Source of the DNA: Gemmatimonadota bacterium
GTDB lineage: Bacteria > JAAXHH01
DNA: 64,000 nt
NCBI GenBank assembly: GCA_009838645.1
Contig: VXRC01000049.1
Location: forward strand, 186,001 to 250,000
Reading direction: 5' to 3'
Shown here piece by piece: positions 12,266 through 17,331 of this stretch (the stretch's first letter is position 1; the number at the start of each line of letters is the position of its first letter). The notes below the pieces were generated by a model. That model searched no databases. It was given only the letters and a program-made list of their open reading frames with translations, and had not been told where the DNA came from. The translations under genes were made by a program, and so were the position numbers.

Positions 12266-15250
12266 CTACGCCTCCGGCGCCTGTTCTTCGGTCTCGGACT
12301 CGTCTGCTTCCGGTGATCTGAGCAGTTTCTGAATCAGCCGGGTCCGTTCTTTTTCGACTTCGATCCGCATCTGCCGGTCCTCTTCGATATCGAAGTACCT
12401 CCTTCCGTCGATCCACGTCTGTTCGCACTTCGTATAAGTGGACAGGGGATGGCCGTTCCAGATCACGAAGTCGGCGTCCTTGCCCGGCTCGAGCGATCCG
12501 ACCCAGGGATCGACGGCCAGTTGGATCGCCGCGTTCAATGTGACGAACTTCAGGGCTTCCACCTCGTCCACCCCGCCGTACTTCACCGCCTTGGCGGCTT
12601 CCGTGTTCAAACGCCGGGCGAGTTCGTTGCTGTCGGAGTTGAAGGTGACCAGCACGCCCGCGTCGTGCATCAACGCCCCGTTATGGGGAATGGCGTCGTA
12701 GGCTTCCACTTTGAAGGCCCACCAGTCGCTGAAAGCGGATGCGCCTGCGCCGTGGGCGGCTAACTCCGGCGCGACCTTGTATCCCTCCAGCACGTGCTGG
12801 AAGGTACCGATCGTGAACCCGAATTCATCGGCCACCCGGAGGAGCATCAGGATCTCGTCCTGCCGATAGGAGTGGCAGTGGACGAGGCGCTCACCGGTGA
12901 GGACTTCCTGCAGCGTTTCCAGTTCGAGATCCCGGCGGGGCGGCACGACGTCGGACTTGTCCGCCAGCGCCTCGTATCTGTCCCACGCCTGATGGTATTC
13001 CCGGGCTGCCCGGAACCGGTCGCGGATGATCTGCTCGACCCCCATGCGGCTCTGTGGGTAGCGGTCGCTGAGGATGCGCCAGTTGCTGCGCTTGACGTTT
13101 TCGCCCAGGGCGAACTTGATCCCCGCCTTGGCCTCTGTGAACTTGAGCGCCTCGGGACCGCCGCCCCACCTCAGCTTGATGATCTGGTTCTTCCCTCCGA
13201 TGGGGTTGGCCGAACCGTGCAGCACATTGGCCACCGTGAGTCCTCCGGCCAGTTCCCGGTACATGGCGATATCGTGGCTGTCGATGACGTCGCCGATGCC
13301 CACCTCGGCGGTCACGGCCTGCGTTCCTTCGTTAATACCCTCCAGGATAGCCGTGTGCGAATGGGCGTCGATGATACCGGGCGTGACGTGCTTGCCGGTC
13401 CCGTCGATCACCACGGCGTTTTCCGGTGCGGTGATGCCCGTGCCGACTTCCGCGATCTTTCCTTCGCGGATCAACACATCCGCGTTCTCCAGCCTGCCCC
13501 GCTCGTCCAGCGTCCACACCGTGGCGTTCCGGACGACGAGATGTTCCGTTTGTACTGGTACGCTTTCCCTGCCGAAGGCGCCCGGAGGGTACAGCGCCGG
13601 AGGTTCAGCCACATCGGCCGGCGCGGGTACGTCCTTCGTTTCCGCTTCCCGCGGTGCGGTGCGTTCGGCCGACCAGACCACACTTTCGCCGCCGGGGCGG
13701 ATCCCCCGGCCGGTAATCCGGTCTCCCTGGATCGAACCCGAGAAACGCCATACGCCGGTTTCTCCCAGCGTCTCGTCCTCCACGCTGAATGCGAGACGCG
13801 CGTCTTCCAACGCCATGCTGACCGCCCTCATGGAGTTCCCGTCCTTGTCCAGGGTCCCTTTCGGCGCCCCCGGTGTGCCTTCGATGGACAGCGACAGGCT
13901 GTCGCCCTCCAGCACGACCACCCACGCGCCCCGGGGATCGGTGACCGGCCGTGGGGTGACCACGTGGCGGTTGCCCGCGACCCAGACGTCCTGCACGTTC
14001 ACGTTCTCCGCGAAGAGGGGGCTGTCGGTAATGGTCATGTTGGCCAGCTTACCGGGATCCAGGGTTCCGAGGCGGCTACTCAGTCCGAGCATGGACGCGG
14101 GCGTCGTGGTCAACGCGGCCAGCGCCGCTTCATATTCCAAACCGTGCTCGATCGCCTCACGCACCCTTTCGTGGAATTCGGCGCCCTTGTCCAGCCTCGT
14201 ACTGCTCAGTGCGATGGGGATTCCGGCCCGTTGCAGCCTTCCGGGGTTCCCGGGCGCCAGTTCCCAGTGCCGCAGTGCTGCCAGGGTGACGTCCAGGGCG
14301 TCTTCCGGCGTGGAGACGGAGAGATCGTCCGACCGGGGAAAATCGAGGGGCAGGATGACAGGCGCACCCGCTTCGCGGACTGCGTCCAGCATGCGGTATT
14401 CATGGCCGCTGCCCCGCACGAGGAGCCGCAATCCGAATTCATCGGCCAGGCGGACGGCGCGCAGGAAGGCGTGGTCGTCATCGACACTCACTAGCACGGC
14501 CTGGTCGCGGGCGGCCACCCTGTCCAGCGCCGCCAGCGCGTCGTTGTCCTCCGGACGGTCCTGGCGGGGATTCGCGGCGTAGGCCGCGTGAGCATCCCGG
14601 TACCACTGCGCGTCGAGGATCGTCTGCCGCATGAGGGCCACGACGCCCATCATGGAGGCCGGATAGGTGCGGTTCCGGTTCCGTTCCATGCGCAGGTGCT
14701 GAAAGACGTCGCGCTTCAGAATGTTCTCATTGGGGGATCCGGATCCCAGGTTGACGACCGCGCTGCTGCCCGCGAACACGCCGCGGTCGGCCACGACCAT
14801 GGCCGCCGCGAATCCGGTTTTCCTTAACCGTTCTATCTCAGACTCGCTGACGCGGTACGCTTCGGCGGCGGAACGCTCCGGACGGACGGTGGGGTTCCAG
14901 TGGGCGGACCCCGAGGACGGACCCCCTTCCTCTTCCGGCAGTCCGGCCTGCGTGAACATCTCGATCAAACCGGGATAAATCGTCTGGCCGGAGTAGTCCC
15001 ACCGCTGGGCATCCGGCGGAATGATGACGGAGGCCCCCGCCTCGACGATCAGCCCGTCCCGGATGACCACGACCCCCTCTTCGATCACGAGATCGGGGCG
15101 GACGTATATCCGGGCGTTTTCAAGGGCGTGTACCCGCGAAGGGTTTTCCCGCAGACCCGCCTGCGGCGCCGTCTGCTGGGCTTCCGCGGCGAGGTTGACG
15201 ATTCCGGCCAGCAGCGCGGCCGGGACCAGTTTCCAACCGATTTTAAACAT
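12266..15250 (-). CDS. Tandem two-domain secreted amidohydrolase
   Basis: 994-aa exported protein with a signal peptide (LVPAALLAGIVNLAAEAQ) and a strong GGAGG ribosome site. Two amidohydrolase modules are fused. The first (about 40-440) has the framework, including LGTLDPGKLANMTI, but its metal site reads YPGLIEMFTQAG without HxH. The second (about 570-960) is complete: PGIIDAHSHTA gives HxH, LVHCHS and the FQH strand give later His residues, and FNSDSNE gives the terminal Asp. Only the second half is likely catalytic. With the neighbouring degenerate single-domain protein it may form a periplasmic assembly. Substrate unknown. Confidence 0.85.
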   Translation of the reverse strand: MFKIGWKLVPAALLAGIVNLAAEAQQTAPQAGLRENPSRVHALENARIYVRPDLVIEEGVVVIRDGLIVEAGASVIIPPDAQRWDYSGQTIYPGLIEMFTQAGLPEEEGGPSSGSAHWNPTVRPERSAAEAYRVSESEIERLRKTGFAAAMVVADRGVFAGSSAVVNLGSGSPNENILKRDVFQHLRMERNRNRTYPASMMGVVALMRQTILDAQWYRDAHAAYAANPRQDRPEDNDALAALDRVAARDQAVLVSVDDDHAFLRAVRLADEFGLRLLVRGSGHEYRMLDAVREAGAPVILPLDFPRSDDLSVSTPEDALDVTLAALRHWELAPGNPGRLQRAGIPIALSSTRLDKGAEFHERVREAIEHGLEYEAALAALTTTPASMLGLSSRLGTLDPGKLANMTITDSPLFAENVNVQDVWVAGNRHVVTPRPVTDPRGAWVVVLEGDSLSLSIEGTPGAPKGTLDKDGNSMRAVSMALEDARLAFSVEDETLGETGVWRFSGSIQGDRITGRGIRPGGESVVWSAERTAPREAETKDVPAPADVAEPPALYPPGAFGRESVPVQTEHLVVRNATVWTLDERGRLENADVLIREGKIAEVGTGITAPENAVVIDGTGKHVTPGIIDAHSHTAILEGINEGTQAVTAEVGIGDVIDSHDIAMYRELAGGLTVANVLHGSANPIGGKNQIIKLRWGGGPEALKFTEAKAGIKFALGENVKRSNWRILSDRYPQSRMGVEQIIRDRFRAAREYHQAWDRYEALADKSDVVPPRRDLELETLQEVLTGERLVHCHSYRQDEILMLLRVADEFGFTIGTFQHVLEGYKVAPELAAHGAGASAFSDWWAFKVEAYDAIPHNGALMHDAGVLVTFNSDSNELARRLNTEAAKAVKYGGVDEVEALKFVTLNAAIQLAVDPWVGSLEPGKDADFVIWNGHPLSTYTKCEQTWIDGRRYFDIEEDRQMRIEVEKERTRLIQKLLRSPEADESETEEQAPEA

Positions 15251-15322
15251 GGTTCACCTCCTGAAGCCACGGAATTTACCGTAATTGAAACCGATTGTTA
15301 CACCTTTACTTACATGAATTTC

Positions 15323-15853
15323 CTACATCAACAGTTCAATGACTTCATCCACCGCCTGGCCGATCCGATCGGCGAGTCCGCTTTCGTCGATCCGGCCGAT
15401 GGGATGATCGATTTCGACGATCGGATAGTCGCCGCGTCCGAGCTGCTCCGCCAGTACCCGGGCGGTGTGCGTGAAATTGGTCGTACACAGCAGTACGGAC
15501 GGTAGTTCGAGGTGCTCCAGGATGAGGGCATCGTGCATGCTGCACGCGCTGCAGGAGCCTCAGTCGCCGACGCCCACGAGGGCGAAATGGCAGCGCCGCA
15601 CGATGAGACCGGTCATCTCGTCGGACAGCACGCGGCTGGCGCTTTCCTTGGTGAATTCGAGCGATTCCACGGGATGGTCCAGGCGTTTGCTCAACCGCTC
15701 GAAGACGCCGCGCAGGATGACATCGGAATTGGGCTTTCCGTTGCCCACCAGCGCGGCTGCGGTGTGCCCGGGACCGAGCGGACGACGGGCCGGCCGAAGG
15801 ACCGCTTCTGCGGCTGCGGCCGTGGACGTGGGATCGACGAGAGTTATGGGCAT
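15323..15853 (-). CDS. UGSC family selenoprotein (in-frame UGA as Sec)
   Basis: One 176-residue reading frame interrupted only by a TGA at 15560-15562. Reading it as selenocysteine gives Sec98-Gly-Ser-Cys101, then S-A-Cys104, exactly the U-G-S-C motif that names this (seleno)protein family. The part before the stop (97 aa) and after it (78 aa) are in the same frame, and the second half has no ribosome site of its own. A SECIS-like hairpin follows the UGA. The start ATG 15853 has GGAG 9 nt upstream. The family is presumed to be a thiol/selenol redox protein; its substrate is not known. It follows the 335-aa gene by 69 nt. Confidence 0.85.
15532..15546 (-). promoter_or_regulatory. Bacterial SECIS-like hairpin
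   Basis: In the mRNA a perfect 6-bp stem (CGTGCA/TGCACG) closes a GCA loop that begins 20 nt after the UGA. This fits what is recalled of the bacterial SECIS model: loop 16-37 nt from the UGA, 3-14 nt long, with a G at its first or second position. A wider pairing of GCTCC with GGAGC (2-6 and 42-46 nt after the UGA) could enclose it. Selenocysteine insertion would need SelB, which is not in the window. Confidence 0.65.
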
Positions 15854-15922
15854 ATTCCATGCTCCGTGAGCCTGTGGGGTGACGACGGATCGGCGGCGTG
15901 CATTGCGGTCGTTATACGGTCG

Positions 15923-16930
15923 TTACGATCGGGAGACCAGGCGCGTCACAGGCCTCGACCCGACTCCCCTTCCGGCTCCCAGCCAGGAGGGGATGATGGC
16001 GGAATGTCCGCCCGCCGAGCCTCCCGCGAAGACGATCCAAATCCCTTCCCGGTCCGGCGTCAGCGTGATGCGTTCATCGGGTTCCAGGTCGTCGTGCCGG
16101 CCCGTTGCGTGGATTTCGCGTCCCGCGGCCGCCGTACGTTCGAACAGCGCGTCCCGGATCGTATCGCGCGTCCACCCGGCCCGGCCGAAGACCGACCGGT
16201 GTTCCGGGCAGATGACGAAAACCATGGCGGCGCCGGCGTAGTTGGTCGTGCGGGCGACGCGCGCGAACGAGTCGATCAGGCCGTCAGGCACGTCGTTCAC
16301 GTGGTCGGCCACGGAATGGGGGGCTTCAGCGGCAAATACCGTTACGGCGCCGCGGTCCGTGGGAACACCCAATTCCTCGCCCAGGGTCGGCCAGCCGGGG
16401 CAACGCGCTTCCGGCAGGCAGTACGCGATGCGTCCAGCATGGGATACCGTCGCCCGGTCCAGGTCCCCGGGCACGCTGCCGATACCGTTCCGGATCACCA
16501 GGTTCAGGGCCCTGCCCAGCGTCAGATTGGACCGGTTGCCCGCGCCGAGCACCGCCGTCTCCGCATTGAAACCCAGCGCTGTCACGACAGGACCGTGAAC
16601 GATAACCAGCGGCGCGGCTCCTCCCGTGCTGGCCGAGGGGCCGACGATGTTGAATGCCGGGTCCAGGACGGCTTCCACTGCGGCCAGTACCACGGGGAGT
16701 AGCGCGTCTGTGCAACCGGCCATCACCGCGTTGGCCGCGACCCGTTCCGCCGTGACGGTTCGCTTTCGTTCGGGCACCCGCCCGATTACCCGGCCGGGCT
16801 CGAGTCCGTTTGCGTCCAGCATCCGGTCGATGCGATCGCGGGTGGGCGGTACGACGGGCAGGCCGTCCGACCAGCCCCGGTCATAGGCGTACCCGATAGC
16901 ATCGATTTCTGACTCGACCTGGTGGGACAT
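15923..16930 (-). CDS. Conserved protein of unknown function, UGSC neighbour
   Basis: 335-aa soluble-looking protein that I recognise only as a conserved family with an N-terminal WSDGLPVVPPT signature (about 20-30) and a VAANAVMAGC block (about 84-93). There is no signal peptide, membrane helix or known cofactor motif. Cysteines occur at AGC, YC-LPEARC and IC-PEH. It starts 8 nt after the cytochrome stop and precedes the UGSC selenoprotein, so the three are probably co-transcribed. The composition near the end (FAGGSAGGHSA) is Gly-rich. Function should not be inferred beyond this context. Confidence 0.75.
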   Translation of the reverse strand: MSHQVESEIDAIGYAYDRGWSDGLPVVPPTRDRIDRMLDANGLEPGRVIGRVPERKRTVTAERVAANAVMAGCTDALLPVVLAAVEAVLDPAFNIVGPSASTGGAAPLVIVHGPVVTALGFNAETAVLGAGNRSNLTLGRALNLVIRNGIGSVPGDLDRATVSHAGRIAYCLPEARCPGWPTLGEELGVPTDRGAVTVFAAEAPHSVADHVNDVPDGLIDSFARVARTTNYAGAAMVFVICPEHRSVFGRAGWTRDTIRDALFERTAAAGREIHATGRHDDLEPDERITLTPDREGIWIVFAGGSAGGHSAIIPSWLGAGRGVGSRPVTRLVSRS

Positions 16931-16938
16931 CGGGACCG

Positions 16939-17331
16939 CTACTTGCCGTAGTAGTTTTCGAGATAGGTCAGGATGGTGTCTTCGGTCTTGCTATCGAATG
17001 TCTTCAGGCCCTTCTCATCCTGCATCCACCGGATGGCGTCCAGCCACTCCTCGCGGTTCGCCCGGTACGAGCGGATGATCTGGGTCGGATGGCACTGCGC
17101 GCATTCCCTTTCCACGACGGGGTAGCCGTCGCCCATGATCAGCCGGGTCCGGTGATTCAGTTCCAATCCGGTCCGGGGATCGAACATGGCCACGGGCTTG
17201 GCCGCCTCGGCCTGTGCATTGGCCAGTGCGACTTTCGATCGCTCCGCTTCGTAGTAGATCACGCCGATCACGAGGGCATCGAGGACGATCACGAAGGCGA
17301 TCTGGCCAAGGACGCGCATAAACCTATTCAT
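16939..17331 (-). CDS. Membrane-anchored monohaem cytochrome c
   Basis: 130-aa protein with one N-terminal hydrophobic segment (about 9-27), read as an uncleaved anchor or signal, and one c-type haem motif CAQCH at 77-81. M103 (RWMQDE) is a candidate distal ligand. The tail resembles small cytochromes paired with periplasmic dehydrogenases such as sulfite dehydrogenase. AGGAG lies before the ATG. It is likely the electron acceptor for a periplasmic reaction; neighbours suggest either the PQQ dehydrogenase upstream or the 335-aa/UGSC pair downstream. Confidence 0.82.
   Translation of the reverse strand: MNRFMRVLGQIAFVIVLDALVIGVIYYEAERSKVALANAQAEAAKPVAMFDPRTGLELNHRTRLIMGDGYPVVERECAQCHPTQIIRSYRANREEWLDAIRWMQDEKGLKTFDSKTEDTILTYLENYYGK

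Follow-up and report, generated by a model that had tools for sequence, protein, structure and literature searches.

Glycine and D-proline reductases use selenocysteine (Sec) to cleave a carbon–heteroatom bond, and the resulting Se–S bond is reduced by dithiols (PMC10298544). GrdB and PrdB are Sec enzymes that carry a UxxC motif, which in GrdB takes the form UxxCxxC (PMC13188914). The 'UGSC-containing protein' has also been known for some time (PMC2398784), and is listed both as Pfam PF24696 and as NCBIfam NF041046, 'UGSC family (seleno)protein'. Here we analyse a UGSC gene in a 64,000-nucleotide stretch of Gemmatimonadota bacterium contig VXRC01000049.1 (positions 186001-250000), hereafter the window. 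Since the family is long known, this gene is a new member and not new in kind; what we propose is that its product, together with a conserved protein encoded directly upstream, may well act as a thioredoxin-driven reductase related to GrdB.

The UGSC gene and its selenocysteine codon

The original prediction, made from the DNA alone, had joined two same-frame open reading frames (ORFs) of 97 and 71 residues across a TGA, had recognised Sec-Gly-Ser-Cys, the hallmark of the UGSC family, in the bridged protein, and had described a 6-bp hairpin with G as its first loop base 20 nucleotides (nt) after the UGA. All of this was confirmed. Both ORFs lie on the minus strand, which had not been stated (15853-15560, 97 residues, ending in the TGA; 15538-15323, 71 residues), in a single frame with the TGA at 15562-15560 between them, and the bridged translation of 176 residues, in which the TGA is read as Sec, contains ...CHFALVGVGD-U-GSCSACSMHDA.... 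The Pfam UGSC profile matches this translation across the TGA (E 2.8e-39; 135.5 bits against a cut-off of 25; residues 5-175, profile positions 2-170 of 172), while the NCBIfam UGSC_fam model matches over profile positions 6-146 of 147 at 113.7 bits, just below its curated 125-bit cut-off. Positions C98, G99, S100 and C101 are invariant in a 52-sequence UGSC alignment in which Sec is written as C, and the window protein has U98-G-S-C101 there. The frame after the stop had been called open and domain-like, in line with a Pfam match that runs to residue 175 and with a ratio of non-synonymous to synonymous substitution rates (dN/dS) of 0.15-0.34 after the UGA, measured against relatives from the genus and the order; the part after the UGA, like the part before it, is under purifying selection.

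In homologues the protein does not end at this position, which is occupied by Sec or Cys. The UGSC gene is present in 13 of the 16 genomes of this small phylum, with the TGA in the same column in all 13. For a wider sample we scanned 84,980 genomes with a profile of the upstream partner, confirmed 580 relatives and kept the best 80 loci; because it was drawn with the partner profile, this sample is unselected for Sec or Cys. Of these 80 loci, 77 contain a UGSC gene; TGA stands at the corresponding codon in 75 of the genes and Cys in the Cupriavidus gene, and the remaining gene is interrupted by the end of its contig ahead of the motif. Cys (TGC or TGT) occupies the position of Sec98 in haloarchaeal, Cupriavidus, Roseovarius and Arthrobacter homologues, and an Embleya plasmid homologue also has Cys.

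The hairpin is formed by nt 14-19 past the UGA (CGUGCA) pairing with nt 23-28 (UGCACG), with the G at nt 20 as loop base 1, and in homologues the stem is longer, reaching up to 10 bp. When hairpins were counted that lie 14-38 nt downstream of the UGA, with a predicted stem of at least 4 bp and a G as first or second loop base, 74 of the 78 TGA-bearing UGSC genes had one, far beyond the 15.3 expected from protein-preserving synonymous recoding, a comparison that matters because the hairpin overlaps the codons of a conserved protein segment. All 54 distinct sequences have the loop G at nt 20, double changes occur in four of the eight stem pairs (at columns 18/24, for instance, from C-G to G-C), and covariation scores 0.141, compared with 0.073 +/- 0.007 after shuffling, with 0 of 500 shuffles reaching the observed value. 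A search of 15300-15900 against Rfam gave no match to a family of selenocysteine insertion sequences (SECIS). The check for a bacterial SECIS that had been proposed is supported by these statistics and by the covariation, and at the level of sequence the hairpin is a SECIS.

The host genome (3.81 Mb, 97% complete) encodes all of the Sec machinery that the original prediction had asked for: a tRNA-Sec (one strong match, 71.8 bits, anticodon tca) directly after selB (336.9 bits), as well as selA (492.3 bits) and selD (258.5 bits). Across the phylum, tRNA-Sec was found in 11 of the 13 UGSC-bearing genomes, the other two being the least complete among the 13. Judged by its sequence, the gene is a genuine UGSC-family selenoprotein gene, with Sec98 inserted at the UGA by means of the SECIS and the host's own SelA, SelB, SelC and SelD.

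Three further observations concern individual genes. The host selD (contig C17:142344-143288) lies inside an 881-residue frame with an N-terminal NADH-dehydrogenase-like flavoprotein domain, an Ndh-SelD architecture that matches one reported in the Global Ocean Sampling (GOS) selenoproteome paper. The NifU-like domain PF01106 is matched (E 4.3e-6) by a single sequence in the UGSC alignment, most probably the Cys-type protein of an Arthrobacter plasmid (locus L046 9908-10720), whose C-terminal extension is long. Finally, standard annotation had been expected to call such a gene broken, and this is what has happened on the IncP conjugative plasmid NZ_CP021650.1 of Acidovorax sp. T1 (locus L043 8640-9197), where a UGSC gene with an in-frame TGA and a SECIS was deposited as a 96-residue 'hypothetical protein' stopping at the UGA.

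The upstream partner and its thioredoxin link

The selenoprotein reading of the original prediction stands; the upstream partner, the thioredoxin fusions and the relation to GrdB/PrdB had been missed. The partner matched no Pfam or NCBIfam family. It carries the motifs DGLPVVPPT and MAGC, and DGLP, PPT, MAGC (with Cys73), Cys171 and GG are invariant or nearly so. UGSC lies within 1 kb of the partner in 76 of the 80 loci, in 72 cases directly downstream on the same strand, with a median gap of 38 bp; the loci were picked by similarity to the window partner, so these figures cover its closer relatives. Within the phylum, the partner and UGSC have exactly the same distribution: both are present in 13 of the 16 genomes, and the other three lack both. 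Its closest named relative (91% identity) is encoded by a metagenome-assembled genome (MAG) of Candidatus Latescibacterota, the pair also occurs in haloarchaea, Actinomycetota and Proteobacteria, and the two proteins are fused into one in Sporomusa termitida (plasmid; locus L049 7317-9041). The partner is an almost obligate companion of UGSC, and the two genes form a conserved unit.

In 42 loci the partner has an N-terminal domain of ~90 residues bearing CxTC and VP[TSC] motifs. A profile built from 32 of these domains had thioredoxins as its top PDB matches (E 1.8e-6), while most of the domains taken singly score under the Pfam cut-offs. In Arthrobacter, Roseovarius and Variovorax, thioredoxin reductase genes are found beside the pair or close to it, in one case together with a thioredoxin; a TrxB-like gene is found within 7 kb of the pair in eight loci, and the host, too, has a thioredoxin reductase gene (398.5 bits).

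The structural model of the partner has a predicted local distance difference test score (pLDDT) of 90. A Foldseek search with it returned weak matches only and no convincing PDB relative, and the fumarate hydratase and cyanuric-acid-hydrolase-type folds that we considered were set aside as uninformative, with template modelling (TM) scores of about 0.2-0.3. PDB sequence searches with UGSC and with the partner gave no significant relative.

Relation to GrdB/PrdB, proposed reaction and alternatives

GrdB/PrdB-type genes were taken from UGSC-bearing genomes (25 of 40 have a match) and from one relative in the phylum, and were read through their own in-frame TGA. Comparison of the resulting profile with 85 UGSC sequences in hhalign gave a probability of 93.6% (E 2.1e-7) over about 90 residues, in an alignment that puts Sec on Sec and also aligns the downstream GIP and HP.G motifs. 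Reversed and column-shuffled profiles reached at most 1.0%, 38 unrelated decoy families reached at most 2.3% against GrdB/PrdB and at most 6.1% against UGSC, and a probability of 80.8% remained when the 12 residues surrounding the motif were masked. No UGSC member matched PF07355 at E up to 10; by hidden Markov model UGSC is not a member of that family, and the claim is therefore one of remote homology between Sec domains and not of membership. PF07355 had no match in the host genome either, and one genome of the phylum has a match. By these profile computations, the Sec domains of UGSC and GrdB/PrdB are remotely homologous. The partner was also considered as the equivalent of the GrdB N-terminal part, and this was rejected (hhalign 0.2%).

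Many UGSC-bearing genomes (loci L136-L155, L159 and L160) also carry short PrdB-like selenoprotein genes with an in-frame TGA, mostly with U-P-x-C in place of U-G-x-C, and these are apparently another uncharacterised branch of GrdB/PrdB.

AlphaFold2 models the UGSC protein as five alternating beta-alpha units (mean pLDDT 91, predicted TM score 0.87), in which Sec98, modelled as Cys, starts the helix following strand 3. The PDB neighbours listed for this model are mainly flavodoxin-like, with modest scores, and the Sec domain is predicted to be flavodoxin-like and not thioredoxin-like. A thioredoxin-like fold had been suggested for UGSC (PMC2398784); we rejected it on the basis of the beta-alpha topology, the flavodoxin-like neighbours and a score of 0.8% for the UGSC profile against the thioredoxin domain of its own partner.

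The best explanation overall, in which we place slightly more than even confidence, is that UGSC and its partner constitute a thioredoxin-driven, GrdB-like two-component reductase. We infer that the two proteins form one enzyme, in which the partner would bind and activate an organic substrate, perhaps of carboxylate type, as the catabolic gene neighbourhoods described below suggest. By analogy with GrdB/PrdB, the Sec98 selenolate would attack this substrate and reductively cleave a carbon–heteroatom bond, and would then form a selenenylsulfide with Cys101 (or Cys104), to be reduced by thioredoxin. Many lineages have this thioredoxin as part of the partner protein; the others, the host among them, would rely on TrxR/Trx acting in trans.

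Several results weigh against this proposal. The match to GrdB/PrdB covers only those roughly 90 UGSC residues at 12-24% identity, with E-values that are those of single comparisons; a PDB sequence search with GrdB gave no significant relative, and the PDB contains no GrdB/PrdB structure for comparison. Foldseek comparisons of the UGSC model scored weakly, with E no better than 3e-3 and TM of about 0.4-0.5, and the partner resembles neither GrdB nor any solved fold well. No GrdE/PrdA-type pyruvoyl precursor turned up beside the pair, in an analysis that included no search aimed at GrdE/PrdA, the window partner is not fused to thioredoxin, and we saw no trx gene next to the pair in the window. 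In the Sporomusa fusion both Sec and Cys are gone, with MGTSS in place of the UGSC motif; part of the superfamily has therefore lost the redox residues, and some relatives function without the motif. The literature search, moreover, yielded no biochemical data on any UGSC member.

The alternative that fares best, although we consider it rather unlikely, is that UGSC is a generic thiol-disulfide oxidoreductase, whether a redox relay or a peroxidase-like protein, and not a GrdB-like substrate reductase. The thioredoxin-like fold guessed at in the literature would fit such a role, and the thioredoxin fusions and trxB neighbours would suit any thiol-redox function; the five-fold beta-alpha alternation with Sec after strand 3, the mainly flavodoxin-like neighbours and the negligible score against the partner's thioredoxin domain do not point that way, the GrdB/PrdB match stands clear of the decoys, and the catabolic neighbourhoods suggest metabolism over housekeeping redox. 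It is improbable that the pair instead transforms metals, metalloids or organo-elements: other Sec-containing families have been discussed in heavy-metal detoxification (PMC13188914), and several conserved Cys of UGSC and the partner could bind metals, but none of the neighbours that were annotated or clustered stood out as a metal-resistance gene, although no specific search for such genes was made. That the UGA truly ends a 97-residue protein and the downstream frame is dead has the presence of a stop codon as its sole support and is given practically no weight, being refuted by a UGA at the same codon in 13/13 phylum and 75/77 wider homologues with Cys in others, by the low dN/dS after the UGA, by the SECIS, by the complete Sec machinery and by the profile match across the stop.

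Gene neighbourhood and comparison with known systems

Two further genes accompany the pair in the window (Table 1). The upstream CAQCH protein, which has no Pfam match, keeps its position throughout the genus and in loci L050 and L051 (the latter a gammaproteobacterial-labelled MAG contig), and is a genus-level member of the likely operon. The downstream amidohydrolase is conserved in the genus loci, where it is probably co-transcribed with UGSC, and lies outside the wider conserved pair. Clustering of the neighbours around the pair brought up recurrent short-chain dehydrogenase/reductase (SDR)-like, transport-component-like, CoA-transferase-like and thiolase-like clusters, and no single substrate pathway emerged from it. 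A gene with a SelB-type GHVDHGKT motif lies near the pair in six loci.

Table 1 Positions of the UGSC gene, its recoding signals and its neighbours in the window.
Feature	Position	Strand	Basis or remark
UGSC-family selenoprotein gene, 176 aa including Sec98	15323..15853	minus	stop codon 15325-15323; bridged translation, PF24696, NF041046, dN/dS
In-frame TGA, Sec98 of the U-G-S-C-x-x-C motif	15560..15562	minus	TGA/Cys pattern in homologues
Bacterial SECIS hairpin, 6-bp stem, 3-nt loop GCA	15532..15546	minus	recoding test, covariation, invariant loop G
Conserved partner, 335 aa, directly upstream of the UGSC gene	15923..16930	minus	linkage, co-occurrence
Membrane-anchored protein, 130 aa, single CAQCH haem-c-type motif	16939..17331	minus	8 bp upstream of the partner
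Amidohydrolase-family protein, directly downstream of the UGSC gene	12266..15250	minus	PF01979 and PF07969

Neither the partner family nor its thioredoxin fusion nor the relation to GrdB/PrdB is described in the literature that we searched, which comprised mostly papers available without subscription, and we regard the novelty of all three as provisional. The 2008 GOS paper reports a fusion of UGSC to an 'Unknown_1' domain (PMC2398784), which may be a partner of the window type. As a tentative idea, short of even confidence, UGSC and its partner (often a thioredoxin-partner fusion) could represent an unrecognised and widespread class of thioredoxin-driven selenoenzymes, in which a GrdB/PrdB-type selenolate would cleave a carbon–heteroatom bond in a catabolic substrate, spread over many bacterial phyla and, in a Cys form, the haloarchaea. 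If true, amino-acid-reductase chemistry would extend beyond fermenting anaerobes. The partner, the thioredoxin fusions and the GrdB/PrdB relation turn a family known by its motif only into a testable two-component reductase hypothesis, the first functional idea for it, and the partner family, with its 580 relatives in one genome scan, is a useful annotation marker for UGSC genes truncated at the UGA.

Set beside the known UGSC family, the window gene agrees in its full-length match, its U-G-S-C motif, the occurrence of Sec and Cys forms and the SECIS after the UGA, and differs in its score on the NCBIfam model, which falls under the curated value. The domain fused to the partner differs from thioredoxin in being divergent, in being joined to an undescribed partner family and in its absence from the window partner, but has the CxTC active site and VPT motif of thioredoxin. 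As for GrdB/PrdB (PF07355, TIGR04483), only the C-terminal Sec half is common to UGSC, the partner is unrelated to GrdB and the pair has no known pyruvoyl subunit, whereas the Sec aligned in a U-x-x-C motif and the downstream E..GIP..V and HP.G motifs are the same, as would be, in comparison with glycine reductase, the use of thioredoxin as electron donor.
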